Origin: an uncultured Lachnospiraceae bacterium
GTDB taxonomy: Bacteria > Bacillota > Clostridia > Lachnospirales > Lachnospiraceae
Reading direction: 5' to 3'
Assembly: GCA_946403625.1 (NCBI GenBank)
Contig: CAMJAP010000024.1
Location: 1 to 32,966, forward strand
DNA length: 32,966 bases
Shown here: one piece after another, positions 1 through 21,398 of the stretch
Numbering within the stretch: position 1 is the stretch's first letter
Layout of the letters: each line of letters opens with the position of its first letter
The notes under the pieces: generated by a model
What the model was told of the DNA's origin: nothing
Database searches by the model: none
Seen by the model: only the letters and a program-made list of their open reading frames with translations
Position numbers and translations under genes: made by a program

Positions 1-14
1 TATACGTAATCCCG

Positions 15-42
15 TTGCTTTTGTCAAGAATTATGTTAGAAT
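15..42 (+). promoter_or_regulatory. Candidate promoter for first lipoprotein gene
   Basis: A TTGCTT hexamer (15-20) is followed after 16 nt by TAGAAT (37-42), about 35 nt before the ATG at 78. It resembles a housekeeping sigma-A promoter, but the region is AT-rich and chance matches are likely. The window edge prevents seeing further upstream. Confidence 0.3.
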
Positions 43-77
43 ACATATTATATTATAGGATAATTGACGAGGTGGAT

Positions 78-581: not shown

Positions 582-640
582 TTTCAGTTAAACGTAGCAA
601 TGGGGGGGTTCTTGGCATAGAAAATCATCAGGAAAAGTGA

Positions 641-1120
641 GTGAAAATGAAACGTAAGATTGTAATAATCTCTGTAATTGTAATTATTCTTATAGTACTT
701 TTGTCAACAATTCTATGCTTATCACAGTTTCATTTTGATTTTTCACAGGATTACAGAAGTATAGAAGGATATGAAAATATAATTTTCAAGGATTCGTGGA
801 GCGGTCAAGGTTTCCGTTTATGTACCTGGGGATTGATTAAAACAGAAAATGACACTGAGTTTGAAGACCATCGAAACCCGGACGAATCATCTTATGAATA
901 CAGGCTCTTATCCGAGAAGACTGATGCAGAGATGTGGCAGGTTGATCAAATTGTTTCATCTCCGGACGGGAAGTATATTTTGTATGTTGAGAGGGTATAC
1001 CGTGGAACCGGAGTAACTGATGATGAGGATGTGTATTTCAAAGTTTATTCGATAGAAGATGGCACGAGCACAACCATTTATTCCGGTTACAGGCAATTCC
1101 TGCTGGTTGATTGGAAATAA
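641..1120 (+). CDS. Hypothetical single-pass membrane-anchored protein
   Basis: The 159-aa product starts with two to three basic residues and a strongly hydrophobic segment (about residues 6-28), so it is probably anchored in the membrane with an extracytoplasmic domain; a signal peptide is the alternative. The soluble part contains SSPDGKYILYVERV, a pattern typical of beta-propeller or Tol/WD-like strands, but only one or two such strands fit, so I assign no family. GTG 641 has AGGA seven nt upstream. ATG 647, two codons later, is an equally possible start. It lies about 60 nt after the preceding lipoprotein gene and may be co-transcribed with it. Confidence 0.65.
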   Translation: MKMKRKIVIISVIVIILIVLLSTILCLSQFHFDFSQDYRSIEGYENIIFKDSWSGQGFRLCTWGLIKTENDTEFEDHRNPDESSYEYRLLSEKTDAEMWQVDQIVSSPDGKYILYVERVYRGTGVTDDEDVYFKVYSIEDGTSTTIYSGYRQFLLVDWK

Positions 1121-1170
1121 CTGTCAGATGTCGGTAAAATCTTTTAAAACAATTGAGTATGATGAGGAAT

Positions 1171-1914
1171 ATGGAAAAGGAACAGATAAGATTTTTAGAA
1201 AATATAGCAGCCGACGGTTTTGTTGGTTTGGAAGAGATAGTTTATGACGGATGGGAGCTCAGGTTTACGCAGGGGTATACGGGGAGAGCTAATTCGGTAC
1301 AGATCAGGGAAGAATCGACGATCGAATTGTCTGAAAAATTGTATTTCTGCGAGAAGGCATATGCGGAGCATGGTCTGCCGTGTATGTTTAAGTTAACAGA
1401 TGCAGATGAGGAGCTGATTGCTTTCCTGGAGAACAGAGGCTATCAGAAACATAAGCCAACGGATGTTATGCTGCTTGCACTGAACAGTGTAGATACAGAT
1501 CTCGAAATGCCGAATGATGTTTATTTCAGTACAACACCCGATGGCTGGTATGAACCGTATTTTGAATTTGAAGATATTGCAGATGAAACAAAACGGGATC
1601 TGATCAGGAAGATTCATGCCAAAGTTTTGGCTGAGCAGGTTTATATCAGTATAATGTATAAGAAAGCAGTGGCGGCTGTTGCTTCTCTGGCAATTGAGAA
1701 CGGATACAGCTTATTGCATAATGTGGTAGTCTCCCCCGGACTTAGAGGGATCGGGCTCGGCAGAAAACTGTGTCAGGCAGCAATAATGAAATCCGGGGAA
1801 TACGGAGCTTCACATATATATCTTCAGGTGATGCAGAATAATCCGGTGGCTTTAAATCTTTATAAGAAGCTCGGATTTGAAAAACAATATACATATTATT
1901 ACCTGACAATCTGA
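1171..1914 (+). CDS. GNAT family N-acetyltransferase
   Basis: This is a predicted acetyl-CoA-dependent N-acetyltransferase of about 247 aa. The C-terminal half carries the GNAT core: VVVSPGLRGIGLGRKLCQAA holds the R/Q-x-x-G-x-G/A acetyl-CoA pyrophosphate loop, followed by NNPVALNLYKKLGFEK, the usual motif B helix and strand. The N-terminal part (YDGWELRF, then GYTGRANSV) matches a known two-part GNAT layout. The substrate cannot be inferred. The start is uncertain: TTG 1153, ATG 1159, ATG 1162 and ATG 1171 are all in frame; I chose 1171 because GAGGA lies immediately upstream and the protein then starts MEKEQIRFLEN, but the spacing is tight. Confidence 0.88.
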   Translation: MEKEQIRFLENIAADGFVGLEEIVYDGWELRFTQGYTGRANSVQIREESTIELSEKLYFCEKAYAEHGLPCMFKLTDADEELIAFLENRGYQKHKPTDVMLLALNSVDTDLEMPNDVYFSTTPDGWYEPYFEFEDIADETKRDLIRKIHAKVLAEQVYISIMYKKAVAAVASLAIENGYSLLHNVVVSPGLRGIGLGRKLCQAAIMKSGEYGASHIYLQVMQNNPVALNLYKKLGFEKQYTYYYLTI

Positions 1915-1981
1915 GAGTTACGGTTGTAAGTTCACTCGCAACATAACTTGCTAAAAGAAAAGATAAACATTGGGGGATAGC

Positions 1982-3037
1982 TTGAATCATATTGAATTAA
2001 AGAGAATACAAAAAAATAAGAATTGGGTAGACTTTGAGTGGTTTATAGATGGAAAAAGGCTAAGCGACCACTTGAATGACAGAAAAAGTTTTGAATTACC
2101 TGAAAATGTCACTCCTTTTGATGATCTGTGTCCGGCGTGGACCAAAACACTGAGCTATACCGGCGATGTCAGGTTTGTATGGTATCTGCAGAACTTAGAT
2201 AATGCCATTATGCCCGTTTATGTGTGCCCGGATGATCTCGATTTTTCATGTATCGTAATAGTTATCGAAATAGAGAAGAACAAGGATTTTGTTTACTGGA
2301 GCAGAGCGGGATACGTAAAAAATGATTATTATGATCTTCAGGACGAATTAAGAAGCGGCATTGCATGTCTGGAAGCATATTCCGATAAGGATTGGGAAAA
2401 ATATGGAGACAATATTGCTTTAGCGGAAGTAAACAGTCCCGAATGGAAGAAATGGATTTCTGAAAATTGGGATGAAGAACTTTTCAGGAGAAGAATTAAT
2501 TACACATATCCGCATTATTTAAAGGATGAAAACATATTATGGTTTGCCAATTTAGACTTTTCATTTGATAGATATGAATATGAAAAAATGGTTGATGAGT
2601 ATTGGAATGGCGAAAGCCTTATTTGCCTGGAAAAATACAGTAAAACAAGGATGAACTATAAAGAATGCGTAGAACTAATAAAATGTATCCACCGAAATGG
2701 ATATGAAGTATTAGAAAAACATTTAGCTGATTTTGGCGAAGTATTACTACATATTTACGCTAGTGATGAGATCAGCAATCCATTGTTTGAATTATTAAAA
2801 AACCAAGAAAACGAAGAATTAATTAAGATTTATTCAAAGGTCATCGAACTTATGTGGAAATACGGTGACGAAGCAGTAGTAAATGTTGTAGATGTTACAA
2901 TTCTAGAAAAGTTGTCAGATGATATTAATGTTTGGAATCGATTTGGAAAATATATAACCAATGATTTTAAAGAATATATTAATAAAGATCTTATTAGAAG
3001 CAATATCGCCATGTGTCATGTTGCACCTATTGAATAA
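1982..3037 (+). CDS. Hypothetical protein, possible immunity-type protein
   Basis: The gene encodes a 351-aa cytoplasmic-looking protein with no signal or membrane segment. Two regions can be seen: an N-terminal part with many aromatic and acidic residues (about 1-215) and a helical C-terminal part (about 216-345) starting near LEKYSKTRMNYKECVELIK. The C-terminal part resembles small helical domains found in immunity-gene clusters, but that is a family-level impression, not a proven match. The start is TTG 1982, six nt after a GGGGGA ribosome binding site (1972-1977); a TTG at 1970 overlaps that site and is less likely. It is followed by a truncated acetyltransferase, DUF4303 and TPR genes. 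Confidence 0.7.
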   Translation: MNHIELKRIQKNKNWVDFEWFIDGKRLSDHLNDRKSFELPENVTPFDDLCPAWTKTLSYTGDVRFVWYLQNLDNAIMPVYVCPDDLDFSCIVIVIEIEKNKDFVYWSRAGYVKNDYYDLQDELRSGIACLEAYSDKDWEKYGDNIALAEVNSPEWKKWISENWDEELFRRRINYTYPHYLKDENILWFANLDFSFDRYEYEKMVDEYWNGESLICLEKYSKTRMNYKECVELIKCIHRNGYEVLEKHLADFGEVLLHIYASDEISNPLFELLKNQENEELIKIYSKVIELMWKYGDEAVVNVVDVTILEKLSDDINVWNRFGKYITNDFKEYINKDLIRSNIAMCHVAPIE

Positions 3038-3092
3038 TAAATTTAACTTAAACGTGCTAAGGCGCAAGTCGTGATTTGTTGGAGAGAGTGTG

Positions 3093-3302
3093 ATGATTAG
3101 ACTAAGACCATATAAGCCTTCTGATGCAAAAAGTATCGTATCGTGGTGTAAGGATGAGAAGACATTCCTGCAATGGGGTGGTGACCACTTTGGGACTTTC
3201 CCCATTTCGGAAGATACAATGAACCATAAGTATTTACATGAGAATGGGGATTGCATAGAAGAAGATATAAGGAAGATATGTATCAGTTTGAACAGACAAT
3301 AA
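3093..3302 (+). pseudogene. Truncated GNAT acetyltransferase remnant
   Basis: The 69-codon frame begins MIRLRPYKPSDAKSIVSWC and continues into a tryptophan-containing stretch (QWGGDHFG), a common N-terminus of GNAT acetyltransferases of roughly 150-180 aa. The acetyl-CoA binding motif and everything after it is missing; the frame ends within about 15 residues after HENGDCIEED. A good ribosome binding site (GGAGAG, 3081-3086) remains. The most economical reading is an internal deletion or a decayed gene whose 3' part was replaced by the next gene. A short functional protein cannot be excluded. Confidence 0.65.
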
Positions 3303-3317
3303 ACGAGGAGAAAAAAG

Positions 3318-3935
3318 ATGGGTTTACTTGATGGATTTAAGAAGAATACTTTGTTTGATCCGGAGATTTTCTTTGCCGATATTGAAAACAAGGTTTATGA
3401 AGCGATCAAAAAGGATTTGGAAACAATTGTTAAGATGGCAGGGACGGAGAAACTGTACGCGATGGCTTTGGTAGCTGATGAAGATTGCGTTTCCTTATAC
3501 TTTGCAGCAAATACATTGGAGAAGGCACGGGAGAAAGATTTAAAGTACGCAGAGATGCTGAAAGATCGTTTGTCAGAAGAAGAGATTAAGGCCGTTACAG
3601 ATGGAAAGAAGAGTTTTGTAAAATGGATTCCGGATGAATGGGCATATTCAGCGGGAAATAAGAGTCCGTTTACTGCAATCAGTGATAAGTTGTTGAAACA
3701 GGAAGAATCCAATGCCTCGGAATATGCAAAATCCAAAGCACTGTTTTTTGAAAGCCTGACGAATGCTATGAAAAAGATTGCAGAAGAAAATGGCATGAGA
3801 ACCGGTTTTGAAGATATAACATATTTCATAACATTGTGTGATGGTAATGGCAGAGAAGAAATAGAGGACTATTCTGCAAAACTGTTGAATCGGCAAGATC
3901 AGTACGAGAGTTTTATGAAACGCAAGGAAAAATAA
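3318..3935 (+). CDS. DUF4303-like protein
   Basis: This 205-aa protein matches the general layout of the DUF4303 family: an N-terminal helical stretch, then a strand reading LYAMALVADEDCVSLYFAANT, then a KWIPDEWAYSAGN segment with conserved Trp and Tyr, and a long C-terminal helix. DUF4303 proteins are often found in immunity-gene arrays near polymorphic toxins, but their biochemical role is not known to me. The ATG at 3318 follows GAGGAG with good spacing. Only two nucleotides separate it from the TPR gene downstream, so the two are almost certainly co-translated and may work as a pair. Confidence 0.75.
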   Translation: MGLLDGFKKNTLFDPEIFFADIENKVYEAIKKDLETIVKMAGTEKLYAMALVADEDCVSLYFAANTLEKAREKDLKYAEMLKDRLSEEEIKAVTDGKKSFVKWIPDEWAYSAGNKSPFTAISDKLLKQEESNASEYAKSKALFFESLTNAMKKIAEENGMRTGFEDITYFITLCDGNGREEIEDYSAKLLNRQDQYESFMKRKEK

Positions 3936-3937
3936 TC

Positions 3938-4336
3938 ATGAAAACACTGAATGAATACGCTGAAGAAGGAAACAAGCTGTTTGATGAAAGAAAGTATACG
4001 GCGGCTATCTCGATATGGCTGGAAGGATTGGATTCTCTGAATAAACCGCTTAATGAGCAAAGTGAAGTTGTGTGGTTTCAAACATCTATTGCAGATGCTT
4101 GGTTTATGCTGGGAGAATTTGAAAAAGCATACCCGTATTTGAAAGATGCGAAATCAAATATTTCGGGTGAAGGTTATATGAATCCATTCGTAATGCTTCG
4201 CTTGGGACAGTGTTCACATGAATTAGGCAAAGAAGATGCGGTAGAATATCTTATGCGTGCTTACATGCTTGCGGGAGAAGAAATTTTTGAAAACGATGAT
4301 GAAAAGTACTTTGATTTGATTAAAGATCTGATATGA
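3938..4336 (+). CDS. Small tetratricopeptide-repeat protein
   Basis: The 132-aa product is all-helical and built from TPR-like pairs. The clearest are GNKLFDERKYTAAISIWLEG (about 11-30), IADAWFMLGEFEKAYPYLKDA (about 51-71) and LRLGQCSHELGKEDAVEYLMRA (about 88-109), which show the small/large residue spacing of TPR helices. TPRs bind peptides or partner proteins. The gene starts two nt after the DUF4303 stop codon, and in my experience of such loci a short TPR protein commonly accompanies DUF4303-type genes, so a joint role is likely. No catalytic residues are evident. Confidence 0.8.
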   Translation: MKTLNEYAEEGNKLFDERKYTAAISIWLEGLDSLNKPLNEQSEVVWFQTSIADAWFMLGEFEKAYPYLKDAKSNISGEGYMNPFVMLRLGQCSHELGKEDAVEYLMRAYMLAGEEIFENDDEKYFDLIKDLI

Positions 4337-4455
4337 TACAGGTGTTGTCTCTGATGAAAAGTATAGAGCATTAAAAAACGGATTGTTTTTATAAGCCACA
4401 TGTAAGATTAGGTATATGATGGAGAGCTATTCTTGATGATAATTGAGGATTGAAA

Positions 4456-4839
4456 TTGAAGATAGAACATATTGCCATGTACGTGAATGAGTTGGAATCG
4501 GCAAGGGACTTCTTTGTGAAGTATCTCGGAGGAGTGTCGAATGATGGATATAACAACAAAACAACTGGATTTAAATCATACTTTATCAGTTTTGATGATG
4601 GAGCAAGACTTGAAATAATGAATAAACCTTCTATGGAGAATATTGCAAAGTCAATCAATCGTACAGGATATATTCATATAGCCTTTTCTGTAGGAAGTGT
4701 TGAAGAAGTTGATCGTTTGACAAGACAATTCCGGGAAGACGGTTTTGAGGTATTAAGTGGTCCGCGAACTACAGGCGATGGCTATTATGAGAGCTGTATA
4801 GTCGGAATTGAAGGAAATCAGATTGAGATTACTGTTTGA
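4456..4839 (+). CDS. VOC (glyoxalase/bleomycin-resistance) superfamily protein
   Basis: This 127-aa protein has the paired beta-alpha-beta-beta-beta modules of the vicinal oxygen chelate fold. Module 1 begins KIEHIAMYVNELESARDFFVKYLG and ends ARLEIMNKP; module 2 begins YIHIAFSVGSVEEVDRLTRQF and ends NQIEITV. Four candidate metal ligands sit in the usual places (His near residue 4, Glu in RLEIM, His in YIHIAF, Glu in QIEITV), so it may be a metal-dependent lyase or dioxygenase-like enzyme, or a drug-binding protein. The substrate is not predictable. TTG 4456 was preferred because GAGGA (4445-4449) is six nt upstream; a TTG at 4450 is too close to that site. Confidence 0.88.
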   Translation: MKIEHIAMYVNELESARDFFVKYLGGVSNDGYNNKTTGFKSYFISFDDGARLEIMNKPSMENIAKSINRTGYIHIAFSVGSVEEVDRLTRQFREDGFEVLSGPRTTGDGYYESCIVGIEGNQIEITV

Positions 4840-4903
4840 TTATACCGGAATATATGCCAGGATAATAGACTAAGACGAATCGAAGTTTGTTGGGGATGCA
4901 AAA

Positions 4904-5722
4904 ATGAAGAAATATACTATGCCGATCATTATGCTGGTTGTATTCGAAACGATCGCAATTACCTTATGGCTGACAAAGGACAATCTGTTCTATCTGTTCA
5001 ATTTCAGCTACATCGGACTGTCCATTTCGCTTGGTGTTTTTTTGTTTATTAAAAAATATAAATATGCCAGGCGCATTGTTCAACTGCTTGTCGGTCTGTA
5101 CATGCTTGTCTATCTTGGGTTGATATGTAACGAAAACATGCAGATCGAGGGATTCTGGTATTATCTGTTCACAGGCGTGTTTGAGGCTGCAACAATACAT
5201 TATGCCGTAGCCAAAATATTCGGACCGCTGTTATTTGGGCGCGGATGGTGCGGATATGCCTGCTGGACGGCTATGGTGCTGGATTTTCTGCCTTACAAAG
5301 CGCCAAAGGAGCCGCGAAAAAAAATAGGATGGATCAGGTATATCACCTTTGCGGCTTCGCTGATCTTTGTTGCAGCATTGTTCCTTGCTCATGTGGGGAA
5401 CATTGAGAGAATCATGTTCTGGGCATTTATTATTGGTAACATTCTCTATTATACGACAGGAATTATCCTTGCATTTTCCTTCAAGGATAACCGGGCATTC
5501 TGCAAGTACATCTGTCCGATTACTGTTTTTCTGAAGCCGATGAGTTATTTTTCTCTGATTCGTCTGAAATGCGATAAGGAGAAGTGTATCTCCTGTGGGA
5601 AATGCAAATGTGTTTGCCCGATGAATGTTGATGTGACAGATAATTCAAGGAAACGTAAAAACGGTACAGAATGCATCCTATGCATGGAGTGCGTAAAGAA
5701 CTGTCCCAAAGACGCATTATGA
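4904..5722 (+). CDS. NapH-like membrane 4Fe-4S protein
   Basis: The 272-aa protein has about five to six membrane segments followed by a ferredoxin-like C-terminus, as in the NapH/CcoG/RdxA group that passes electrons between membrane and soluble redox partners. Conserved cysteine motifs are GRGWCGYAC (C116, C120) and FCKYICP (C200, C204) at membrane edges, then two 4Fe-4S motifs: C228-x2-C231-x2-C234-x3-C238 and C257-x2-C260-x2-C263-x3-C267. The GRxxCGxxC and CxxxCP motifs are typical of this family. No reductase or maturation partner is beside it, so the electron route is unknown. The protein ends soon after the last cluster (CPKDAL). It starts with MKKYTMPI after a GGGGA site. Confidence 0.87.
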   Translation: MKKYTMPIIMLVVFETIAITLWLTKDNLFYLFNFSYIGLSISLGVFLFIKKYKYARRIVQLLVGLYMLVYLGLICNENMQIEGFWYYLFTGVFEAATIHYAVAKIFGPLLFGRGWCGYACWTAMVLDFLPYKAPKEPRKKIGWIRYITFAASLIFVAALFLAHVGNIERIMFWAFIIGNILYYTTGIILAFSFKDNRAFCKYICPITVFLKPMSYFSLIRLKCDKEKCISCGKCKCVCPMNVDVTDNSRKRKNGTECILCMECVKNCPKDAL

Positions 5723-5832
5723 CAACTTCATGTTTGTAGATGTCTCTTTCTAACTTGCCTTGCAGTCATTCCTATAACGAGTAGTTTATGAAGATGTGAA
5801 AGATAGATTCAAGCAAAGGGAGAAAAAGAAAA

Positions 5833-5946
5833 GTGGATATATGGTCCATATTTGATCCTGAACAGAAAAAGCTGCATCGTGAGACAGTCTTCTCGCAGGA
5901 GAGGAAGAAGGCTTTTGATATGGGAAAGACGATGGAAGAAAGATAG
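5833..5946 (+). CDS. Possible small protein, 37 aa
   Basis: A short frame with a GTG start (5833) and TAG stop (5944-5946) lies in the gap before the next gene. It reads VDIWSIFDPEQKKLHR and later KKAFDMGKTMEER, a charged, helix-prone sequence. A GGGAG site (5818-5822) lies ten nt upstream. The stop is 14 nt before the ATG of the two-TM gene at 5961, which would fit a small co-translated partner. I know no family for it; it could be a decayed remnant. Confidence 0.35.
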   Translation: MDIWSIFDPEQKKLHRETVFSQERKKAFDMGKTMEER

Positions 5947-5960
5947 GGAGGGTATGCAAC

Positions 5961-6548
5961 ATGGATCTTGTAGAAATATTTGAGGTTATTTTTGGGGCAG
6001 GTTTTATCATTCTTGCACTGATCGGCAACCAGCAGATTTTCGGCGGCATATTTTACTCCAAAAAGGTGAAGGCTGTTGTGGGTAAGAGGGAGTCAAAAAC
6101 ATACGCTAATATAGGTGGCGTAAGATACACAGGCGGGCATGATATCTATCTGGCAGAGGAACGGGACCGGAGCCGCCACAGACGGAGCGGCGATCGAAAG
6201 AAGCAAAGATACAGAGTACACAGGGTTGAGAGTATCAGCTTCTCCTATGAGGAGGGCGGAGAAATACATACCACTGATCCTAAAACCACGATATGTCCGA
6301 TCAGCCCGTACTATATTAATGTTTCCAGTGAGTATAATATTATGGTGAGCCGCAGGGATCCGCGTAAAGCAAGACTTGGATTATTTGAAGTATTGAGAGT
6401 ACATCTGTGCTCAAAGGCAAATATCATTATGAAGTTTATCAGCTGTGCTATAGTCACCTGTGATTTCCTGATGGTTCTGGCTGCTGATGTGGGACTTGCC
6501 GCACTTGGCGCATGGATCATGAATCTTGGGATCAATGGGATCCGATAG
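5961..6548 (+). CDS. Two-TM membrane protein, DUF3592-like layout
   Basis: The 195-aa product has a hydrophobic segment at about residues 8-30, a strand-rich middle domain, and a second hydrophobic region at about 155-190. The middle shows KKVKAVVGKRES, then RVESISFSYEEGGEIHTT, then YNIMVSRRDPRKARL. This pattern (membrane helix, small beta domain with an x-Y-x-x-G-G-x-x turn, and a V-x-x-x-P-x-x-x-R-L end) resembles DUF3592-type proteins of unknown function, but the match is only by layout. The start ATG follows GGGAGGG with good spacing. A possible 37-aa gene ends just upstream. Confidence 0.65.
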   Translation: MDLVEIFEVIFGAGFIILALIGNQQIFGGIFYSKKVKAVVGKRESKTYANIGGVRYTGGHDIYLAEERDRSRHRRSGDRKKQRYRVHRVESISFSYEEGGEIHTTDPKTTICPISPYYINVSSEYNIMVSRRDPRKARLGLFEVLRVHLCSKANIIMKFISCAIVTCDFLMVLAADVGLAALGAWIMNLGINGIR

Positions 6549-6554
6549 CGCCTT

Positions 6555-6617
6555 GGAACCGTGTACCATTACACAAATATTAAGTAATGTAACAATATTG
6601 TAACGGTACACGGTTCC
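6555..6617. repeat. 63-nt inverted-repeat element (MITE-like)
   Basis: Two arms of 19 bp (6555-6573 and 6599-6617) are reverse complements with one mismatch; the outer 13 bp (GGAACCGTGTACC) are perfect. The loop is AT-rich. There is no T-run after the right arm, so it is a poor intrinsic terminator. It sits between two genes on the plus strand in the accessory region. A miniature transposable element or a palindromic intergenic repeat is the likely identity. Confidence 0.6.
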
Positions 6618-6652
6618 TATATGATTATGAAAATGAAAAAGGAGAAAACGTT

Positions 6653-7054
6653 ATGAAATCCATGCGAAAATCAACATTTGTGGTATTGAGTACCATCTTA
6701 CTAACTGCCTGTGGGTCGGTACAACTACATGGCGACTATGACAGTCCCCAGGCGGCGATAGAGGATTTTGATGCGAATTATGCGGAAGCTATTTCGGAAC
6801 ATCAGTCATACAGTGATGAAATGGCAGGAAAAACAGTCGTAGTCAAAGCGACCGAGGATTCTGACGAGCGTAATTTGGGTAACAAATTTTTTATCATTTA
6901 TTCTAAGGGTGACATAGAAGTTCAGCTTTGGGATGTCGATCATGCACAGTTTAATGACGGAAAGGATTATTTGTTGACGATCGAACATATTGATAAGATC
7001 CAGACAGGCGGGATAAAACAGTTTCATATTGTTTGTGATGCTATAGAGCAATGA
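6653..7054 (+). CDS. Small putative lipoprotein, possible OB-fold
   Basis: This gene encodes a 133-aa precursor with a lipoprotein signal: MKSMRKS, a hydrophobic core, and lipobox LLTAC with the cysteine at residue 20. The mature domain contains AGKTVVVKATEDSDE and later KDYLLTIEHIDKIQTGG, which looks like a small beta-barrel similar to OB-fold domains found in secreted Firmicute lipoproteins; that fold is inferred, not demonstrated. The ribosome binding site is AAAGGAG. It lies just after the 63-nt inverted repeat and 66 nt before another lipoprotein gene. Confidence 0.75.
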   Translation: MKSMRKSTFVVLSTILLTACGSVQLHGDYDSPQAAIEDFDANYAEAISEHQSYSDEMAGKTVVVKATEDSDERNLGNKFFIIYSKGDIEVQLWDVDHAQFNDGKDYLLTIEHIDKIQTGGIKQFHIVCDAIEQ

Positions 7055-7120
7055 CCCTGCGCCAAGATTATTTTGCAGAGGTGAAAATCCGAAGTAGAAA
7101 GGATATGGGGGAATAATATA

Positions 7121-7717
7121 TTGAAACTTAAAATGATAATTATATTGCTCATTTCTATTGCAGTACCAATCTTCCTGCTATCTTCATGTGCCTCCCCGGA
7201 TAACGTAAAGCTTTCAGATAGTGTGGGCGCAGTAAAATATGTCGAAGAAAACTTTGGGAATGCGGAACTTATCGGAACCAATACAAATTCCGTTTCAATA
7301 GTATATACCTTTCGGGATGAAGAATACGGATTTGAATACAGTATGCGTTCGTTTGCATCGGGGAATAGCGTTGATGGCGAGATATTTGGATATTCCGAAG
7401 AAAAATCATCGGATTTCTCGGAGAAGTATCAGAATTACATAGATTCTCAGATTGATGACGAAGTTACAAGTCTCGAAGAACAGTACCATTTTGACTTTTT
7501 GTGGTACGGTGGAACCTCCGCAGATGTTGCGGGGACGCTGGTATTTGACGATAAATATATTTCTAATGCGGAACAGGCATCAGAGGAAATTGCTAAACTC
7601 ATAAAAAGTATCGATGACCGTGGTTATTTTGAGACTATCCATATAAAATACAGTAAGGGTCTCTTTAATTATTATTATGATTTAAGAAATGATTCATATA
7701 CAATGTATGCTAACTGA
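7121..7717 (+). CDS. Putative lipoprotein, unknown function
   Basis: The 198-aa precursor starts at TTG 7121, eight nt after GGGGGA (7107-7112). It has a lysine-containing N-terminus, a hydrophobic core rich in Ile and Leu, and a lipobox ending LLSSC with cysteine near residue 23. The mature protein is soluble, rich in Tyr, Ser, Asp and Glu, and shows a KYVEENFGNAELIG segment early and a YYDLRNDSYTMYAN tail. I do not recognise a family. It probably sits on the outer face of the membrane, like the other lipoproteins in this region. Confidence 0.75.
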   Translation: MKLKMIIILLISIAVPIFLLSSCASPDNVKLSDSVGAVKYVEENFGNAELIGTNTNSVSIVYTFRDEEYGFEYSMRSFASGNSVDGEIFGYSEEKSSDFSEKYQNYIDSQIDDEVTSLEEQYHFDFLWYGGTSADVAGTLVFDDKYISNAEQASEEIAKLIKSIDDRGYFETIHIKYSKGLFNYYYDLRNDSYTMYAN

Positions 7718-7797
7718 TAAGGGGGCATCTAAAATGAATTGTAACACAAAAAACGCAAAAATAAAGGGAAAAACACTTGACAATATAGGGAGGCATT

Positions 7798-8364
7798 ATG
7801 TTAAAAGATTACGAAATAGATAAACCTGTCCTTGAAACGGATCGGCTGATTATTAGAACTCTTAACGAAGCAGATGTGCCGGATTTGAAAGAATGGTTGG
7901 GGAGAGATGAAATATATACCTATTGGGGGCGAAAAGCAAACAAGAATGAGAAAAATCCTGAATTGATGTTTGTTGACGCTCGGCCTTGGGTGAAAAGAAA
8001 GCCTTCACCGGACTTTAACTGGGGGATTGTTTGGAAAGAAACAAATACTGTTATTGGAATGATTGCGGTATTTGATATACAGAATTCGAGGATGGGAGAT
8101 ATAGGGTATCGTATTCATCCTGAATATTGGAATATGGGAATTACTACAGAAGCACTAAAGGAAGTAATACGGTTCATATTTGAAAATACAGAAATTGAGC
8201 GGATAAATGGACGGGCTGATGTTAGGAATATTGCTTCCAATAAGGTTCTTGAGCGGTGTGGTTTCATAAAAGAGGGGACAGTCCGACAAGGCAAAATGGT
8301 ATCGGTCTATTGTGACTATAACATTTATGGTATGCTTAGAGAAGATTATGCAAAGATAGACTAA
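7798..8364 (+). CDS. GNAT acetyltransferase, RimJ/RimL type
   Basis: This 188-aa protein belongs to the Acetyltransf_3 (RimJ/RimL-like) branch of GNATs. Diagnostic segments are ETDRLIIRTLNEADVPDLKEW at the N-terminus, the acetyl-CoA loop region YRIHPEYWNMGITTEALKEV, and NIASNKVLERCGFIKEGTVR near the C-terminus. Members acetylate protein N-termini, aminoglycosides or small metabolites; nothing here distinguishes them. A GGGAGG ribosome binding site lies six nt before the ATG. It is the last complete gene before the truncated uvrB copy, so it is next to the left boundary of the repeat-bounded segment. Confidence 0.9.
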   Translation: MLKDYEIDKPVLETDRLIIRTLNEADVPDLKEWLGRDEIYTYWGRKANKNEKNPELMFVDARPWVKRKPSPDFNWGIVWKETNTVIGMIAVFDIQNSRMGDIGYRIHPEYWNMGITTEALKEVIRFIFENTEIERINGRADVRNIASNKVLERCGFIKEGTVRQGKMVSVYCDYNIYGMLREDYAKID

Positions 8365-8440
8365 ATGATTGCATCGCTAGATTCTAGTATGTCAGGATGA
8401 GGGAATAGGCATTTATCTCGAAATATCAGAGGTTTAAACT

Positions 8441-8596
8441 ATGAATATTAAATTACATTCCGAATACCAGCCGACCGGCGACCATCCGCAGGCGATCAAA
8501 GAACTCGTTGACGGGTTCAAAAAAAGCAATCAGTTTCAGACCCTGCTGGGCGTTACGGAGGTGATTTGGGTACCCAAATTCGTCGGCATTCTATAA
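8441..8596 (+). pseudogene. Truncated 5' copy of uvrB
   Basis: The first 118 bp (8441-8558) match the start of the intact uvrB (10679-10796) with five mismatches. The homology breaks just after the codon for Thr39, directly before the GSGKT part of the Walker A loop, and the frame runs 12 more codons to a TAA. Three codons differ in protein terms: Phe3 to Ile, Gln15 to His and Gly29 to Ser. These residues are conserved in UvrB proteins I know, so this copy appears to be decaying. It keeps a weak AGG-containing leader. It cannot encode a functional UvrB. Confidence 0.93.
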
Positions 8597-8767
8597 TGAT
8601 TGCACACTTTCTGTGGATTATCTTGTTGGCAGAAGAAAACGGAGGGAGGATCTGATACCAGTAAGTTTCGAAAGATTTGTCGAATGATTTGCTGAAAAAC
8701 ATACATAAGTGTTGTAGTATATCTGTAAGGATCATAGAGAATTATTAATTTAAGGGAGGAAAAAGAT

Positions 8768-9019
8768 ATGCCGACAATAGCACCCATTTCTGAACTGCGA
8801 AACTATGGTCAGGTTTTAGAAAGAGTAAGGCCGAATGCACCGGTTTATCTGACACAAAACGGGCATAGAGAATACAGCGTTCATAGTATAGAAGACGATG
8901 AAGAGTTCGAGAAGACAAAAGCAATGCTTAAGCTTATGATAGAACTGAACAAGGGATTTCAATCTGGGGAGCAACAAGGATGGCAAACAGAAGAAGATCT
9001 GGACAGAGTCTGGGATTAG
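8768..9019 (+). CDS. Phd/YefM-like antitoxin of a type II TA module
   Basis: The 83-aa protein has the N-terminal DNA-binding pattern of Phd/YefM antitoxins: TIAPISELRNYGQVLERV, then APVYLTQNGHREYSVHSIED, in which the TQNG turn is typical. The C-terminal half is acidic and helical (EEFEKTKAMLKLMIELNKGF), as expected for the toxin-binding part. A strong GGGAGGAAAAAG site (8754-8765) precedes the ATG. The reading frame stops at TAG 9017-9019, and the same frame then continues directly into toxin-like sequence, which is unusual. Antitoxins of this class usually repress their own promoter. Confidence 0.85.
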   Translation: MPTIAPISELRNYGQVLERVRPNAPVYLTQNGHREYSVHSIEDDEEFEKTKAMLKLMIELNKGFQSGEQQGWQTEEDLDRVWD

Positions 9020-9304
9020 GTATATGGGGCTTCTCAGAGTTTTGATATTGCAGACAGTTATATCACGAATCTGAGAGCGGCGATCAGTAAAAAGAGGAAC
9101 TATCCTAAGACAGGGACACCATTGAGTTTCATGGGAGAGTTTACCGGTATCTATTACGTGACATTCAAAGAGTACATCGCATTTTACAGAATCAATGAAA
9201 ACAGAATAGAAATCGGTAGAATTCTATTTGCAAGAAGCGATTATATGAAGACGCTGTTCGGGAAGAGCGATTACACTTTGGAAGATACAGATGATCTGTT
9301 CTAG
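9020..9304 (+). pseudogene. RelE/ParE-like toxin lacking its N-terminus
   Basis: The open frame after the antitoxin stop reads VYGASQSFDIADSYITNLR, then KTGTPLSFMGEFTGIYYVTF, then EYIAFYRINENRIEIGRILF and ARSDYMKTLFG. The strand order and the IAFYR...RILFARSDY ending match RelE/ParE toxins, in which the full protein is about 100 aa. No start codon with a ribosome binding site exists near the 5' end; the first plausible ones are TTG 9122 and ATG 9131, which would remove nearly half the fold. The first strand and helix are missing. Most likely a deletion joined the antitoxin and toxin frames and inactivated the toxin. Translation by stop-codon readthrough is a less likely alternative. Confidence 0.6.
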
Positions 9305-9435
9305 AGTGCATCTGGATACAAAGGGGAAGTCTCCAGATAGACTATCCTATCCTTACACTTCTGCCCCTAAACCAATCGAAATGTATCGATTATCAAAAAT
9401 GAAATGCCTTGGAAAATAGAATACGATTAAGAAGG

Positions 9436-9463
9436 GAACTGCCATAAGGGCAGTTTCTTTTTT
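9436..9463 (+). terminator. Intrinsic terminator
   Basis: The stem AACTGCC (9437-9443) pairs with GGCAGTT (9449-9455) over a five-base loop and is followed by CTTTTTT. It lies about 130 nt after the toxin remnant and would end plus-strand transcription from the antitoxin. Confidence 0.8.
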
Positions 9464-9605
9464 ACTGTGAGTCTGATAACGCAAGTTTCCAAGGAGAAAG
9501 TTCCCATCACAATCGATAGAGGGAATGATGTAGCAAAGTAGATTTGACAGATTGTACGGGAATGGTGTTGGATACTATTGTAGATGTTAGCCAATATGTG
9601 AAATT

Positions 9606-9664
9606 ATAAAGGGGCTGTCGCACTAAGCACAGATTTTTATCATCTAATGCGACAGCCCCTTTAT
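9606..9664. mobile_element. 59-nt perfect inverted repeat resembling joined IS ends
   Basis: The arms ATAAAGGGGCTGTCGCA (9606-9622) and its exact reverse complement (9648-9664) flank a 25-nt loop. The GGGGCTGTCGCA motif resembles terminal repeats of IS1182-like elements in Firmicutes as I recall them. With no transposase between the arms it looks like an internally deleted IS or a MITE. It could also act as a transcription terminator, although the downstream T-run is short. Confidence 0.6.
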
Positions 9665-9691
9665 GTTGTTATCAGATGCTATCCTTTACTG

Positions 9692-9710
9692 TTTCCTTAT
9701 ATTAAGGAAA
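9692..9710. repeat. Small inverted repeat
   Basis: TTTCCTTA (9692-9699) and TAAGGAAA (9703-9710) are perfect 8-bp arms around TAT. There is no T-run beyond a natural AT-rich flank, so function is unclear. It lies downstream of vapC on the minus strand. Confidence 0.45.
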
Positions 9711-9724
9711 AGCTGTTCACTATT

Positions 9725-9758
9725 CGAAAATCGAAAAAACAGAGGCTTTCGATTTTCG
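9725..9758 (-). repeat. Hairpin downstream of vapC
   Basis: CGAAAATCGAAA (9725-9736) and TTTCGATTTTCG (9747-9758) are perfect 12-bp arms with a 10-nt loop. In vapC mRNA the hairpin would form about 20 nt after the stop codon. It may end or stabilise the transcript, but no T-run follows on the minus strand, so I do not call it an intrinsic terminator. Confidence 0.5.
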
Positions 9759-9777
9759 GATGAATAGAGGGGCGTTA

Positions 9778-10158
9778 TCAGAGAACGCAGGGCGATTTGT
9801 AATCCAGAATCTTTTTATCTTCTGTAAGGAATTGGAATTTTTCTGCTTCGGCCTGTGCTACAAGCATTCGGTCAAAAGGATCTCTGTGTTCCCATTCCGA
9901 CAGGCTTCGTAATCGCAGTATATGTTCTTTTTTTAGAGGCAATGGAACGAAACCCATTTCATCACACCCTTCCAGTAAATCTTCGGCAGGAATGGGCATT
10001 TTTCCGATATTGTTTTTTATTGCTACTTCCCAGATAGATATCAGACTATAATAGAATCGGTTTCTTCCGTCTATCAGATAGCTTTTTGCCTTATCGGAGA
10101 GTTTATCGTCGTCATAAATACTCCATAGAAGAATATGTGTGTCCGCTAATATGTTCAT
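9778..10158 (-). CDS. vapC: PIN-domain toxin, VapC family
   Basis: This 126-aa protein is a predicted Mg2+-dependent ribonuclease of a type II toxin-antitoxin pair. It has the full PIN acidic set: Asp6 in MNILADTHILLW, Glu44 in SIWEVAIK, Asp93/Asp96 in HRDPFDRMLVAQA, and Asp114 in LTEDKKI. The length fits the family. VapC toxins cleave specific tRNAs or rRNA and inhibit growth when freed from antitoxin. The start codon overlaps the stop of the upstream antitoxin gene by four bases (ATGA), so the pair is translationally coupled. All catalytic residues are present, so it should be active. Confidence 0.93.
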   Translation of the reverse strand: MNILADTHILLWSIYDDDKLSDKAKSYLIDGRNRFYYSLISIWEVAIKNNIGKMPIPAEDLLEGCDEMGFVPLPLKKEHILRLRSLSEWEHRDPFDRMLVAQAEAEKFQFLTEDKKILDYKSPCVL

Positions 10159-10394
10159 ACGCCCTCCATAAGAGATAATACTTCATCATTGCACTCATCA
10201 ATATCATCCGGAATAACATATTTTCCTTTTCTTATGCCTAGCTTACGCGTTTGCGGCTGGGGGATATATAAGGTTAAAACTGCCACTGGGGTGCCGTCCC
10301 TGGCAATTACTATCTGGTCTTCTTCATTTTTTTCCAGGGATGCTATCAGTTTTGAAAGATCGGTTTTAGCCTGAAACATATTTACTTGAGTCAT
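10155..10394 (-). CDS. Phd/YefM family antitoxin partner of VapC
   Basis: The 79-aa product starts MTQVNMFQAKTDLSKLIASL and continues with a DGTPVAVLTLY segment, which is the Phd/YefM DNA-binding fold: a strand, a helix with the K-x-x-L-S-x-L-I pattern, and a strand pair. The C-terminal tail (GKYVIPDDIDECNDEVLSLM) is acidic and should wrap around the VapC active site. The AAAGGAGG ribosome binding site is ideal. Its stop overlaps the vapC start. Together with VapC it is expected to bind and repress the promoter found just upstream. Confidence 0.92.
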   Translation of the reverse strand: MTQVNMFQAKTDLSKLIASLEKNEEDQIVIARDGTPVAVLTLYIPQPQTRKLGIRKGKYVIPDDIDECNDEVLSLMEGV

Positions 10395-10444
10395 ATATTT
10401 TCCTCCTTTACAGTATCATTTCTAATCTTAACTAACCTAGCTAA

Positions 10445-10473
10445 ATAATAGCATATTTTCACATATATGGCAA
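10445..10473 (-). promoter_or_regulatory. Promoter of the phd-vapC operon
   Basis: On the minus strand TTGCCA (10468-10473) and TATTAT (10445-10450) are separated by exactly 17 nt, ending about 50 nt before the antitoxin ATG. The downstream segment repeats TTAG-containing words (about 10424-10442), which may be the autoregulatory operator. Confidence 0.65.
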
Positions 10474-10519
10474 TATAATGAGCATGAAAAATCAGTTCCG
10501 TGGGTGTGGAGCAAGTGAC

Positions 10520-10549
10520 TTGACACGCATTTCTGCAGGAGAGTAGAAT
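10520..10549 (+). promoter_or_regulatory. Candidate uvrB promoter
   Basis: TTGACA (10520-10525) is followed after 18 nt by TAGAAT (10544-10549), about 130 nt upstream of uvrB. The -35 box is perfect. No good LexA/SOS box is visible around it or elsewhere between 10395 and 10678, unlike the uvrA promoter. Confidence 0.5.
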
Positions 10550-10678
10550 GGAACGAGGCGCATATGGAAAAGGCAAAGCGTTATCTTTGGTGTTGGGTTG
10601 TTTTTGCAGCTGAAAAATTGGCCAATAGACGAACTTTTTTTCTATCAAATTATGCTGTTTTTTGAGGATTTATAAGCT

Positions 10679-12652
10679 ATGAATTTCAAATTACATTCCG
10701 AATACCAGCCGACCGGCGATCAGCCGCAGGCGATCAAAGAACTCGTTGACGGGTTCAAAAAAGGCAATCAGTTTCAGACCCTGCTGGGCGTTACGGGTTC
10801 CGGTAAGACCTTCACCATGGCAAATGTGATCGCGGCACTGAACAAGCCGACACTGATCATCGCGCATAACAAAACTTTAGCGGCCCAGCTCTATGGTGAG
10901 TTTAAAGAATTCTTCCCGGAGAATGCGGTCGAATATTTTGTATCCTATTACGATTATTATCAGCCGGAGGCGTATGTGCCTTCGACGGATACCTATATCG
11001 AAAAAGACTCGGATGTCAATGACGAAATCGATAAGCTGCGTTTGTCGGCAACGGCATCGTTGACGGAGCGGCGGGATGTGGTGGTCATCGCCAGCGTATC
11101 CTGTATCTACGGTCTGGGCAGCCCGGACGAATATTCGGGACTGGTCGTATCGCTGCGCCCGGGACAGCAGAAGGATCGTGACGATGTCATACGGGAACTG
11201 ATCGGCATTCAGTATGACCGTAATGATCTGGATCTGAACCGTGGCTGTTTCCGCGTGCGCGGGGATGTGCTGGAGATCAATCCGGCCGAGCAGGGTGACA
11301 CGATCATCCGCGTGGAATTTTTCGGAGACGAGATCGACCGCATCACACAGCTGGACAATGTAACGCATCGCCCGATCTGTACGCTGGAGCATGTGAGCAT
11401 CTATCCGGCATCGCACTATGTAGTTTCCAAGGAGCGCATGGAGGAAGCCTGCAAAGCAATCGAAGAAGAAGCCAGAGAACGCGTGGCATTCTTTAAGAGC
11501 GAAGATAAACTGATCGAAGCGCAGCGTATTTTCGAACGCACCAGCTTCGATGTGGAGATGCTGCGGGAGACCGGTATCTGCTCCGGTATCGAAAACTATT
11601 CCAGACATCTGACGGGTATGCCGGCAGGGGCGCATCCGTACTGTCTGATGGATTTCTTTAAGAATGACTTTTTGATCATCATCGACGAGTCGCATATGAC
11701 GATCCCGCAGATCCGCGGTATGTACAACGGCGACCGGGCAAGAAAGACCACATTGGTGGATTACGGATTCCGCCTGCCTTCGGCATTGGACAACCGACCG
11801 CTCAACTTCCCGGAATTTGAATCCTACATCGATCAGATGCTGTTTGTTTCGGCAACGCCTGCGCAGTACGAGGAAGAGCATGAGTTGCTGCGTACGGAGC
11901 AGATCATCCGTCCGACAGGACTATTGGATCCGGAGATCAGTGTACGCCCGGTGGAAGGGCAGATTGATGATCTGGTGGCAGAGATCAAGAAGGAAACGGC
12001 AAAGAAAAATAAGGTGATGATCACCACTCTGACCAAGCGTATGGCGGAGGACCTGACCACCTATCTGCACGACATCGGCATCCGCGTGAAATATCTGCAT
12101 TCCGATATCGATACGCTGGAGCGGGCCGAGATCATTCGTGACCTGCGACTGGATGTGTTTGATGTGCTGGTCGGCATCAATCTGTTGCGAGAAGGTCTGG
12201 ATATTCCAGAAGTAACCTTGGTTGCGATCCTGGATGCGGACAAGGAAGGTTTCCTGCGTTCGGCTACATCCCTGATCCAGACCGTAGGTCGTGCAGCGCG
12301 AAATTCGGAAGGTCATGTCATTATGTATGCCGACAATATGACGGATTCCATGAAGATCTGTATTGATGAGACCAATCGCCGACGCGGCATACAGATGAAG
12401 TATAACGAGGAACACGGCATCACGCCGACCACGATCAAGAAAGCTGTTCGAGAACTGATCGCGATCAGCAAGTCCATCGCATCTACCGAGACGGCTTTGG
12501 AAAAAGATCCGGAATCCATGGACGAAAAAGAACTGAAGAAAGTGATCGCCGATACGGAGAAGCAGATGCGCAAGGCAGCGGCAGATCTGAACTTTGAAGT
12601 GGCGGCCGAACTGCGTGACCGCATGCTGAATCTGAAGAAATACCTGAGCTGA
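10679..12652 (+). CDS. uvrB: UvrABC excinuclease subunit B
   Basis: UvrB (657 aa) is the helicase-like damage-verification subunit of nucleotide excision repair: UvrA loads it on damaged DNA, and it then recruits UvrC. Visible features are the Q-like start [11 protein letters not shown] (residues 9-19), Walker A GVTGSGKT (37-44), the beta-hairpin region [12 protein letters not shown] (about 93-104), the DEAD-like IIDESH box, helicase motif VSATPA, motif [11 protein letters not shown], and a C-terminal UVR domain (about 620-655) that contacts UvrC. The length fits the family. GAGGA precedes the start. Codon use is more GC-rich than in the genes to its left. Its first 118 bp are duplicated at 8441. 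Unlike in many Firmicutes, uvrA is not adjacent but lies 14 kb away. Confidence 0.98.
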
Positions 12653-14959: not shown

Positions 14960-16138
14960 ATGAGCAGGATTTATATTTTTACCGGAAAAGGCGGCGTGGG
15001 AAAGAGCAGCGTGGCGACGGCACACGCCTACAAAAGCGCGGCAGAGGGGAAGAAAACTCTGTTGGTCAGCACCGATATGGCCCACAATCTGGGAGATCTG
15101 TTTGAGCGCAAACTGGGAAGGGAAGAGGAAGAAGTATTGCCGAACCTGTCGCTCTACGAGATCGATCCCGAGTATGTGATGGAGACGGATTTCGCATCGG
15201 TTACGGGCTATCTGACCAGCTTATTTACGGAACTGGAAAACTTAAGCATCAAGGATCTGGGGATGATCCCGGGGATGGAAGAATTATTCTCCCTGTTAAA
15301 GATCGCCGAGATCTATAAGAGCGGCACCTACGAGCGCATCTTTGTGGACTGCGCACCGACCGGCGAAACCTTATCCTTGCTCAAGTTTCCGGAGTTGCTT
15401 TCGTGGTATATGGAGAAGCTGTTCCCCATCGGCAAGATCGGCGTACGCCTGCTGGCACCGGTTTCCAAATCCATCTTCCAGGTGGAGATGCCGAACAAAA
15501 ACGCGATGAACGATATCGAAAAGATCTACCTGAAACTGGCGGAGTTGCAGGAAATGTTAAAGAACCGGGAGATCACGAGCATCCGTCTCGTTACCACTCC
15601 GGAAAAGATGGTCATCGAGGAAACGAAGCGCAACTATATGTATATGAACCTGTATGATTTTAATGTGGACGGTCTCTACATCAACCGCGTTCTGCCGCAG
15701 GACATCGGCAATACCTTCTTTGACCGGTGGATCGAGCTGCAGAGGAATTATATCACGGATATCAAAGAGTGTTTCCGGGCGCTGCCCATCCTGGAGATCC
15801 CCTGGTATGAGGAGGAAGTCAAGGGGGAGGCGGCCATCCGGCGGATCGCGGAAGATGTGCTGCAAGGCCATGATGTGTTCGGAAAGAAAGTGATCAATGC
15901 CAGAGAGACGTTCACCCAGACGGAGGACGGATATCAGCTGGAAGTATCCGTACCCTGCGCGGAGAAAGGGGACATCGATCTGTATCAGGGAACAACGGAT
16001 ATCGTGATCCGGATCGGCAATTTCAAACGAAACATACCGCTGCCGAACATCCTGCGCACCTATGCGGTATCGGGGGCAAAACTGGAGGACGGCAAGTTGC
16101 GGATCAGCTTTGAGAGAGGAGGCACCGGAGATGAATAA
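14960..16138 (+). CDS. ArsA/Get3-family ATPase with C-terminal Hsp20-like domain
   Basis: This 392-aa protein is a P-loop ATPase of the ArsA/Get3/TRC40 group (deviant Walker A, active as dimers). Features: P-loop GKGGVGKS (residues 9-16), switch I STDMAHNLGDLF (usual form STDPAHSLSD), and DCAPTGETLSLLKFPE. Residues about 315-388 form the small beta-sandwich called ArsA_HSP20. The Get3 CxxC zinc motif is not seen. No arsenite pump (arsB) or arsR is nearby, so arsenic export is unlikely; handling of hydrophobic or membrane-associated proteins is an alternative. The gene follows AGGAAAGG and overlaps the next gene by eight nt. Confidence 0.88.
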   Translation: MSRIYIFTGKGGVGKSSVATAHAYKSAAEGKKTLLVSTDMAHNLGDLFERKLGREEEEVLPNLSLYEIDPEYVMETDFASVTGYLTSLFTELENLSIKDLGMIPGMEELFSLLKIAEIYKSGTYERIFVDCAPTGETLSLLKFPELLSWYMEKLFPIGKIGVRLLAPVSKSIFQVEMPNKNAMNDIEKIYLKLAELQEMLKNREITSIRLVTTPEKMVIEETKRNYMYMNLYDFNVDGLYINRVLPQDIGNTFFDRWIELQRNYITDIKECFRALPILEIPWYEEEVKGEAAIRRIAEDVLQGHDVFGKKVINARETFTQTEDGYQLEVSVPCAEKGDIDLYQGTTDIVIRIGNFKRNIPLPNILRTYAVSGAKLEDGKLRISFERGGTGDE

Positions 16139-16346
16139 GACCATGATCAAACGACTGAAGACGGCGGGAGAATATCAGAAAAAAGCGATCCTGGCACTGT
16201 TGCCGGAACGTACGGCAGGGCATCTGGATGTGATCGGAAACGAGATGAAGCAGATGGTGGCGGAGATGCTGCCGGGCAGCTGCAAGAAGGAGAAGGCTCC
16301 GGAAGCAGAGCAGACAGGGAATGTAAAAAAGGTATCGATCGACTGA
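16131..16346 (+). CDS. 71-aa protein between the two ArsA ATPases
   Basis: The small gene starts at ATG 16131, eight nt before the stop of the first arsA, after a GGAGG site (16118-16122). The product begins MNKTMIKRLKTAGEYQKKA and continues ILALLPERTAGHLDVIGNEM, then KQMVAEMLPG and a charged tail containing EKAPEAEQ. It is helical, basic at the start, and has no membrane segment. The LLPE-x-x-x-x-H-x-x-V-I-G-x-E-x-x-x-M pattern looks like a helix-turn-helix hairpin and may be the conserved core. I recognise no family. The overlap on one side and a 19-nt gap on the other show that it is translated with the ATPases, so it is probably their partner or adaptor. Confidence 0.75.
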   Translation: MNKTMIKRLKTAGEYQKKAILALLPERTAGHLDVIGNEMKQMVAEMLPGSCKKEKAPEAEQTGNVKKVSID

Positions 16347-16365
16347 TCGGGAAAGGATGACAGTT

Positions 16366-17544
16366 ATGAGAGTGATCATATATACGGGAAAAGGTGGTGT
16401 CGGCAAGACCAGTATGGCGTGTGCGACGGCATGTGCGATCGCAAAGACCGGAAAGCGGGTGTTGGTGATGAGTACCGATCCGGCCCACAGCCTGGGGGAT
16501 TCCTTTGGCGTAAAGATCGGGCGGGATGCGACGAAACTGTCGGATACCCTGTACGGGATGGAGATCGACACGGTCTATGAAAGCGAAAAAAGCTGGGGCA
16601 ATATGAAGGACTACTTAAAGCGCCTGCTCACGGCAAAAGGCGGCAGCGGGATCGAAGTGGAAGAATTGCTGGTATTCCCGGGGCTGGAGGAACTGTTTTC
16701 GATGTTTAAGATCCTGGAAGTCTGCGAAAGCGGCGAATACGATACGGTCATCGTGGACTGCGCGCCGACCGGCGAAACCCTGGCTTTGCTCAAATATCCG
16801 GAGCAGCTCTCCGGCCTGATCCGCAGGTTTTTGCCGATGGAAAAAGCGGTGGTCCGTACCGGCGGCCGGCTTGTGGAAACGATCGCAAAAATCCCCATGC
16901 CGGGAGAAAATGTATTTGACGATGTCGAATATCTGATGGACAAGATGGAACGCCTGCAGAAACTGCTGCTGGACAAAAAGACCGTCAGCCTGCGTGTAGT
17001 GACGACACCGGAAAAGATCGTGATCAGCGAAGCCAAGCGGAACTTTACCTGCCTGTGCCTGTACCATTACAATGTGGACGCGGTGATCGTCAATCACATT
17101 TATCCCGAAGCGGCAATGGAAGGATATTTCAGCAAATGGCAGAAACTGCAGGAGGAGGCGTTGCAGGAGATTAAGGAATCCTTCAGTGAAGTGCCGAAGT
17201 TTTATGTGGAGCTACAGGACCGCGAGATCCGCACGCTGGAGGTACTGGAGCAGGTCGGGACACAGATCTACGGGGAGTGCGATCCGGCGGAAGTGCTGTT
17301 TGAAAAAGAGATCTACCATGTGGATGCCGAGGACTGTGTCCTGCAGATCTATCTTCCCTTTGCGGAAAAGAGCGAACTGCAGCTGGAGCAGGACCGGAAC
17401 GAGCTGATCGTCGGAGTGAAGAACGAAAGCCGCACATTTCCCATTCCGGAAGAGTTTCGCAATATGGAGATCCAGTCGGCGCTGTTTCAGGACGGCTATC
17501 TGAACATCCTCTTTACCGAGGGGATGGAAGACGCGGCCATGTGA
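16366..17544 (+). CDS. Second ArsA/Get3-family ATPase with Hsp20-like domain
   Basis: The start at ATG 16366 (AAAGGA eight nt upstream) gives 392 aa, the same length as the first ArsA. It carries P-loop GKGGVGKT (residues 8-15), a canonical switch I STDPAHSLGDSF, and DCAPTGETLALLKYPE, followed by the C-terminal beta-sandwich (about 313-388, starting DCVLQIYLPFAEKSELQL). The two ATPases are similar along their full length but clearly diverged, so the duplication is old and each probably has its own role, perhaps as a heterodimer. An in-frame ATG at 16357 overlaps the ribosome binding site and is less likely. It is the last gene of the operon. Confidence 0.88.
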   Translation: MRVIIYTGKGGVGKTSMACATACAIAKTGKRVLVMSTDPAHSLGDSFGVKIGRDATKLSDTLYGMEIDTVYESEKSWGNMKDYLKRLLTAKGGSGIEVEELLVFPGLEELFSMFKILEVCESGEYDTVIVDCAPTGETLALLKYPEQLSGLIRRFLPMEKAVVRTGGRLVETIAKIPMPGENVFDDVEYLMDKMERLQKLLLDKKTVSLRVVTTPEKIVISEAKRNFTCLCLYHYNVDAVIVNHIYPEAAMEGYFSKWQKLQEEALQEIKESFSEVPKFYVELQDREIRTLEVLEQVGTQIYGECDPAEVLFEKEIYHVDAEDCVLQIYLPFAEKSELQLEQDRNELIVGVKNESRTFPIPEEFRNMEIQSALFQDGYLNILFTEGMEDAAM

Positions 17545-21359: not shown

Positions 21360-21398
21360 CGCATCATTACGGCGATGGCAGGACTTGGAGGATTGAAA

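Follow-up and report, generated by a model that had tools for sequence, protein, structure and literature searches.

A probable relic of an element family with uvrB as attachment gene in an uncultured Lachnospiraceae bacterium

Tn554-type transposons have tandem tyrosine recombinases and a fixed target gene, radC, which is interrupted by the insertion, and they carry tnpC. According to excerpts of the published descriptions, islands located in tRNA genes restore the gene that they split, and the island SGI1, at trmE, uses the 3' end of this gene. An integrase family is associated with the islands and prophages of dusA, and the accessible part of their report describes islands that are inserted into the 5' end of this conserved housekeeping gene, supply it with a new 5' end and leave a remnant of the old one (PMC4482086). 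The stretch of DNA analysed here (the window, 32,966 nucleotides; GenBank assembly GCA_946403625.1, contig CAMJAP010000024.1, from an uncultured Lachnospiraceae bacterium) contains the 5' end of uvrB twice, on both sides of a segment with toxin-antitoxin (TA) genes. This segment is very probably (about 0.85) a degenerate integrated element whose family has uvrB as chromosomal attachment gene. In relatives, the integration point is at uvrB codons V-S|Y (about 89/90), and the right end of the element consists of a leader and the first 270 bp or so of uvrB, in frame with the remaining gene of the host, so that uvrB stays whole. The other end keeps another 5' fragment, a recombinase pair is located just upstream of the rebuilt gene, and the elements can be stacked. 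The uvrB-targeted insertion supplying a new 5' end that had been postulated from the window (the original prediction) therefore exists in relatives as a widespread element family.

The uvrB repeat of the window

The two copies, at 8441-8558 and 10679-10796, are identical at 113 of 118 positions (95.8%), in agreement with the 118-bp match with five mismatches of the original prediction, and the match can be extended to 124 nt with 95% identity (8435-8558 and 10673-10796). It is by a wide margin the longest direct repeat between positions 6000 and 14000. The left copy (plus strand, nt 1-118 of the gene) appears to be a displaced and decaying 5' end, the left-end fragment of the element, and the right copy begins an intact uvrB, present as a whole gene. 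The differences are located at uvrB nt 7, 9, 42, 45 and 85. At three of them, nt 7, 45 and 85, the left copy encodes a different residue (F3I, Q15H and G29S), and the base of the right copy is present in all nine genus relatives compared. These three changes at conserved residues had been correctly recognized, and they would be expected in a copy that is no longer under selection. The left frame departs from UvrB after GVT (codon 39), immediately before the GSGKT codons, and the break just before the Walker A codons was therefore also well described. The GC content in 1-kb intervals is 33-43% up to position 10,000 and 46-56% from 10,501 onward. An assembly artefact might be suspected in a draft genome of 195 contigs, but it is extremely unlikely: among the five differences between the copies, three affect bases common to the nine relatives, the flanks differ and a similar architecture is found in other genomes.

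By analogy with the relatives, the intact gene (plus strand) would comprise an element-type 5' end to about codon 89/90 (10679-10947), the place of the integration site at codons V88-S89-Y90 (10940-10948) and a remainder that would be the chromosome's own (10948-12652). It is preceded by its leader (10602-10678, plus strand), considered as the right end of the element, which lacks about 82 bp in which the congeneric genome G016 has its likely right-end motif.

Integration site, travelling 5' end and recombinases in the relatives

A search with the first 40 UvrB residues has been carried out in 397 genomes of the bacterial family, and two or more matches were found in 31 of them, including the genome of the window. 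The extra match was a short copy in 30 of these genomes, and in G310 it was a full gene cut by the contig; another short copy is present in G002, a genus member not included among the 397. Outside the genus there were 37 extra or short copies, from which G310, a second G356 copy that resembles terminal redundancy of the contig and a split main gene (G243:C58) were dropped, and the other 34 were examined in two sets (15 first, then 19). A total of 31 out of 34 end at UvrB residues 89-94, at codons V-S|Y (all 15 in the first set and 16 of 19 in the second), the other three being a copy that runs off the contig (G190) and two that end at residues 25-30 (G195 and the second G224 fragment). In the first set, the letters after EYFVS begin with TA in 15 of 15 cases, and the left end that follows the fragment shows TGGAC repeats and GTGACC...ATTCGT. 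A left-end model made from these 15 sequences recognizes, at E<0.01, 14 of the 19 copies in the second set. When both are on one contig, the fragment is located upstream of uvrB, on the same strand, at distances from 3 to about 217 kb, with the exception of G079, which has two fragments far from its uvrB gene. In this genome (locus L087, 1238-4318 of the reverse complement, far from the intact uvrB) the two short copies are successive and separated by 2.8 kb that contain RhuM- and DUF1016-like genes (by eye). Walker A as target site is rejected, as residues 89-94 are reached by the 31 of 34 copies outside the genus and by the congeneric G031; the site lies about 50 codons further on, and the break of the window at Walker A looks like a later deletion.

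The comparison of Coprococcus catus VPIC661 (G058) with Eubacterium ramulus ATCC 29099 (G192) delimits the element on both sides. At the right end there is no mismatch over 2,600 bp, and the identity continues through uvrB nt 275 and then falls to about 75-77%. On the left side there are 59 mismatches, all of them inside the uvrB fragment and the last one 22 bp before its V-S codon end, followed by 5,027 bp without mismatch. The identity of the shared element extends to the site at either end, beyond which the uvrB pieces are different, and this indicates that both species carry the same element, with both boundaries within about 26 bp around EYFVSY, and that the 5' end travels with it. Stacking is evident in E. 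ramulus, where a further recombinase pair lies before the left fragment. Among 2211 pairs from 67 named loci, a 5' part with at least 97% identity followed by a part below 90% was found in 10 pairs (9 loci, three clusters), and the reverse pattern, a divergent 5' part followed by a similar one, in none of the 2211. In those 10 pairs some differences appear already 16-19 bp before the V-S end, the edge thus not being base-sharp.

Two tandem tyrosine recombinase genes, which match PF00589, are located near the right end in C. catus, G356 and G046, those of G046 being broken. With the second recombinase of the pair as query, 27 matches at E<=1e-45 were obtained in the 397 genomes. For 24 of these matches, a uvrB start follows on the same strand at a distance of 0.3-1.6 kb, and in two cases it is that of a short copy. 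The best 80 of 390 relatives in genomes of named species, a set that overlaps with the previous one, have uvrB within 2.5 kb in 74 cases (68 full and 6 short), and the partner recombinase adjoins in 71. The pair would carry out the integration reaction, with a crossover inside the approximately 26-bp interval at EYFVSY, possibly within GTNTCCTA.

In locus L143 (3968-4314) a run of N directly follows the V-S codons of uvrB, beside a recombinase pair, which might reflect a mixed population or a stretch left out of the record, and in G399 (L220, 13428-15152) the recombinase adjoining uvrB shows 55% identity to the first member of the pair and 34% to the second. A search in 291 class-wide genomes gave a recombinase match in two, G231, from the same family, and G589, from another family of the class. 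No uvrB accompanies the related pair of G589 (L215, 12247-14633) within the 19 kb examined, so that this pair may use another target, and a monophyly check of the 80 chromosomal recombinases gave 2 changes, with G589 inside. A phage or plasmid origin was also considered and rejected, only distant relatives having been found: 23 viral-contig loci with 31% identity or less and no uvrB in the DNA examined, one plasmid record at 33% and two phage records at 26-30%.

Probable relic status and toxin-antitoxin cargo of the window

The whole draft genome of the window gave no match to the second recombinase at E<=1e-20, so the absence of an integrase in the original prediction holds for the window and for the whole genome at this threshold, and the window is considered a relic rather than a working member. 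Among 35 genomes of the genus, the recombinase pair was found at the same threshold only in G031, where it precedes uvrB by 0.3-0.4 kb; G024 retains a recombinase remnant (E=2.8e-6) about 11.5 kb upstream of the gene. In another contig of G031, a uvrB fragment with an internal deletion reaches the same V-S|Y site, with TTTTGGGTACCC about 100 bp further on. In G002 the uvrB fragment extends to near codon 20 and is continued by the same inner left-end sequence, and in the window it extends to codon 39, with AGGTGATTTGGGTACCCAAATTCG as its continuation. The probable left-end remnant of the window (8559-8591, plus strand, beginning with AGGTGATTTGGGTACCCAAATTCGTCGG) contains TTGGGTACCC, which is common to the left ends of G002 and G031 and to the right ends of G002 and G015, and the junction has an 18-nt exact match to the right end of G015. 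The 337,053 bp of genus DNA contain the motif TTGGGTACCC/GGGTACCCAA at 5 places, each of which is a uvrB element end and one of which is the junction of the window; from base shuffles, 0.55 matches are expected. In the window, the recombinases would have been lost and the TA cargo would have remained, and a later deletion that took codons 40-89 and about 100 bp of the left end would have brought uvrB codon 39 next to AGGTGATTTGGGTACCC of the inner left end; the motif of the right end would also be gone. In support of the uvrB-targeted insertion, the window carries the end motif of the element family; the V-S|Y end and the recombinases are missing.

Several observations weigh against a relic of this family. 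The break is at codon 39 instead of 89/90 and neither a recombinase nor a full left end is left, so that the membership of the window rests on a motif of 10-18 nt and on the architecture. The motif was chosen after the junction of the window had been seen, which weakens the figure of five places; its exact form is absent from most right ends of the genus, including that of G031, and the left-end model (nhmmer) did not find the left end of the window. Three of the 27 recombinase matches in the 397 genomes are away from uvrB (G092, which runs off the contig, G356, probably part of a stacked element, and G209:C11), and 6 of the best 80 of 390 named loci lack uvrB within 2.5 kb; in four of these the contig ends within 310 bp, in L214 the distance to uvrB is 4.6 kb, and in L155 no uvrB is present in 10 kb. 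The two copies of the window also share more identity with each other (95.8%) than with the other genus sequences compared, for which the best value is 92%.

This last similarity would favor a local duplication, in which homologous recombination with DNA bearing a uvrB 5' end and TA cargo has formed the repeat with no site-specific recombinase. The comparison with G016 points in the same direction, as the window is 98.7% identical to it in the leader and the cargo 98%, falling to 84% at the uvrB start. Ordinary recombination has therefore acted here, and at this place the cargo was not accompanied by the 5' end, a further point against the element. Nevertheless, a local duplication is improbable, because all other occurrences of the junction motif in the genus DNA examined are at uvrB element ends, and two other genus members have the left fragment with the motif, one of them with the recombinase pair.

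The cargo includes a Phd/YefM-like antitoxin (8768-9019, plus strand; PF02604, E=2.8e-4), a ParE-like toxin remnant (about 9020-9304, plus strand; E=0.009), a PIN-domain toxin (9778-10158, minus strand; PF01850, E=3.9e-11) and the Phd-like antitoxin paired with it (10155-10394, minus strand; PF02604, E=5.7e-6), the matches of both antitoxins and of ParE falling under the Pfam cut-offs. The ParE-like frame, which continues in the same frame after the antitoxin stop codon, lacks the first part present in its G020 homologue (L092). From the two TA modules originally described, only the PIN/Phd pair thus looks whole. This pair adjoins uvrB in G016 with 98% identity, G014 has the pair and DNA of the Phd-like antitoxin, and G020 contains both modules in a different order with 85-95% identity. 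The left uvrB fragment was not found in the 10-12 kb read in these three genomes, which also speaks against an element in the window. The proposal that the TA genes hold the unit in place is weakened, TA addiction being a weak explanation in view of the truncation of one toxin and of the sister species in which TA genes persist beside uvrB with no left fragment in the DNA examined. A unit that is still mobile and stabilized by its TA genes, as the original prediction had it, would fit with the TA genes between the repeats and with the VapBC- and RelE-like genes (names by eye) just inside the left end of G031. However, it is very unlikely, given that the genome has no recombinase of the family, the left core and the right motif are missing and one toxin is truncated.

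Upstream of the probable relic, the window (1-8364) contains low-GC accessory genes, including two GNAT acetyltransferases, DUF4303, DUF7674, glyoxalase-like and 4Fe-4S proteins, and lipoprotein-like genes (the latter by eye), which may be older layers of the same uvrB hotspot. Downstream, two ArsA/Get3-like ATPase genes in tandem (14960-17544) and a long protein with zinc-ribbon, TIR-like and Sel1-type repeat sequence (21375-24182) were noted by eye.

Cargo, significance and comparison with known systems

In C. catus, about 128 kb lie between the uvrB fragment and the gene and are presumed to be a single element. It encodes a VirD4/TraG coupling protein (PF02534, E=1.8e-41) and a VirB4-like ATPase (TraG P-loop/AAA_10), and a relaxase was not identified in it. 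Conjugation genes, a feature of integrative and conjugative elements (ICEs), were identified only in this element and none was seen in the window. In smaller units, 9 of 10 chosen proteins match defence or candidate defence families (AbiL-like, PDC-M62, PDC-M69, PDC-S01 and PDC-M28); as the proteins were picked by eye and AAA ATPases match many such models, this count is not an enrichment test.

It is possible, although rather doubtful, that the element holds uvrB hostage, the only working 5' end (leader and first 90 codons or so, with Walker A) being that of the element. In that case, an imprecise loss of the right end would cost the cell its uvrB and elements with cargo would be retained without any toxin, relics would keep the right end after the loss of the recombinases, and newcomers would stack and reset uvrB expression. 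An SOS decoupling of uvrB by the new leader was also considered and is not supported, since LexA-like boxes, searched with a generally known pattern, occur in both leader groups; in the DNA examined, perfect boxes were found in 11 of 63 distinct leaders with recombinase versus 2 of 47 without it.

The uvrB elements of the relatives share tandem tyrosine recombinases, not present in the window, with the Tn554 type, and differ from it in using uvrB instead of radC and in supplying a new 5' end without interrupting the target. As in SGI1 and the tRNA-gene islands, in the partial descriptions available, integration takes place into a conserved gene, but at the 5' end and not at the 3' end used by SGI1. 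The conjugative ICESa009 of Streptococcus agalactiae also adjoins uvrB, but it is placed between uvrB and secA, and the portion of the report available mentions neither a uvrB fragment nor a 5' swap (PMC12441131). In a phage-inducible island of E. coli, a small gene with a tenth of the size of UvrB has been annotated as uvrB-like, and in the available part of the article the authors doubt this annotation (PMC11773190). Searches of the open PMC literature with phrase terms, uvrB not being required in the broader word searches, found no paper naming uvrB as integration target among those listed, and the word 'excinuclease' does not appear in the available part of a survey of gut mobile elements (PMC6907783).

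The uvrB site (codons 89/90) provides a precise address to find and delimit conjugative and smaller elements with defence-like cargo in Lachnospiraceae-type genomes, explains the uvrB fragments of these genomes and constitutes a case in which different genera exchange the P-loop portion of a core gene for DNA repair. The nearest known systems are the dusA islands, as far as the available part of their report describes them (PMC4482086), with which the uvrB elements of the relatives share the supply of a new 5' end to the target. They differ in the target itself, in the swap of about 270 bp that include the Walker A codons, in having usually two tandem recombinases and in their Lachnospiraceae-type hosts; the uvrB elements work like dusA islands and are not members of them.

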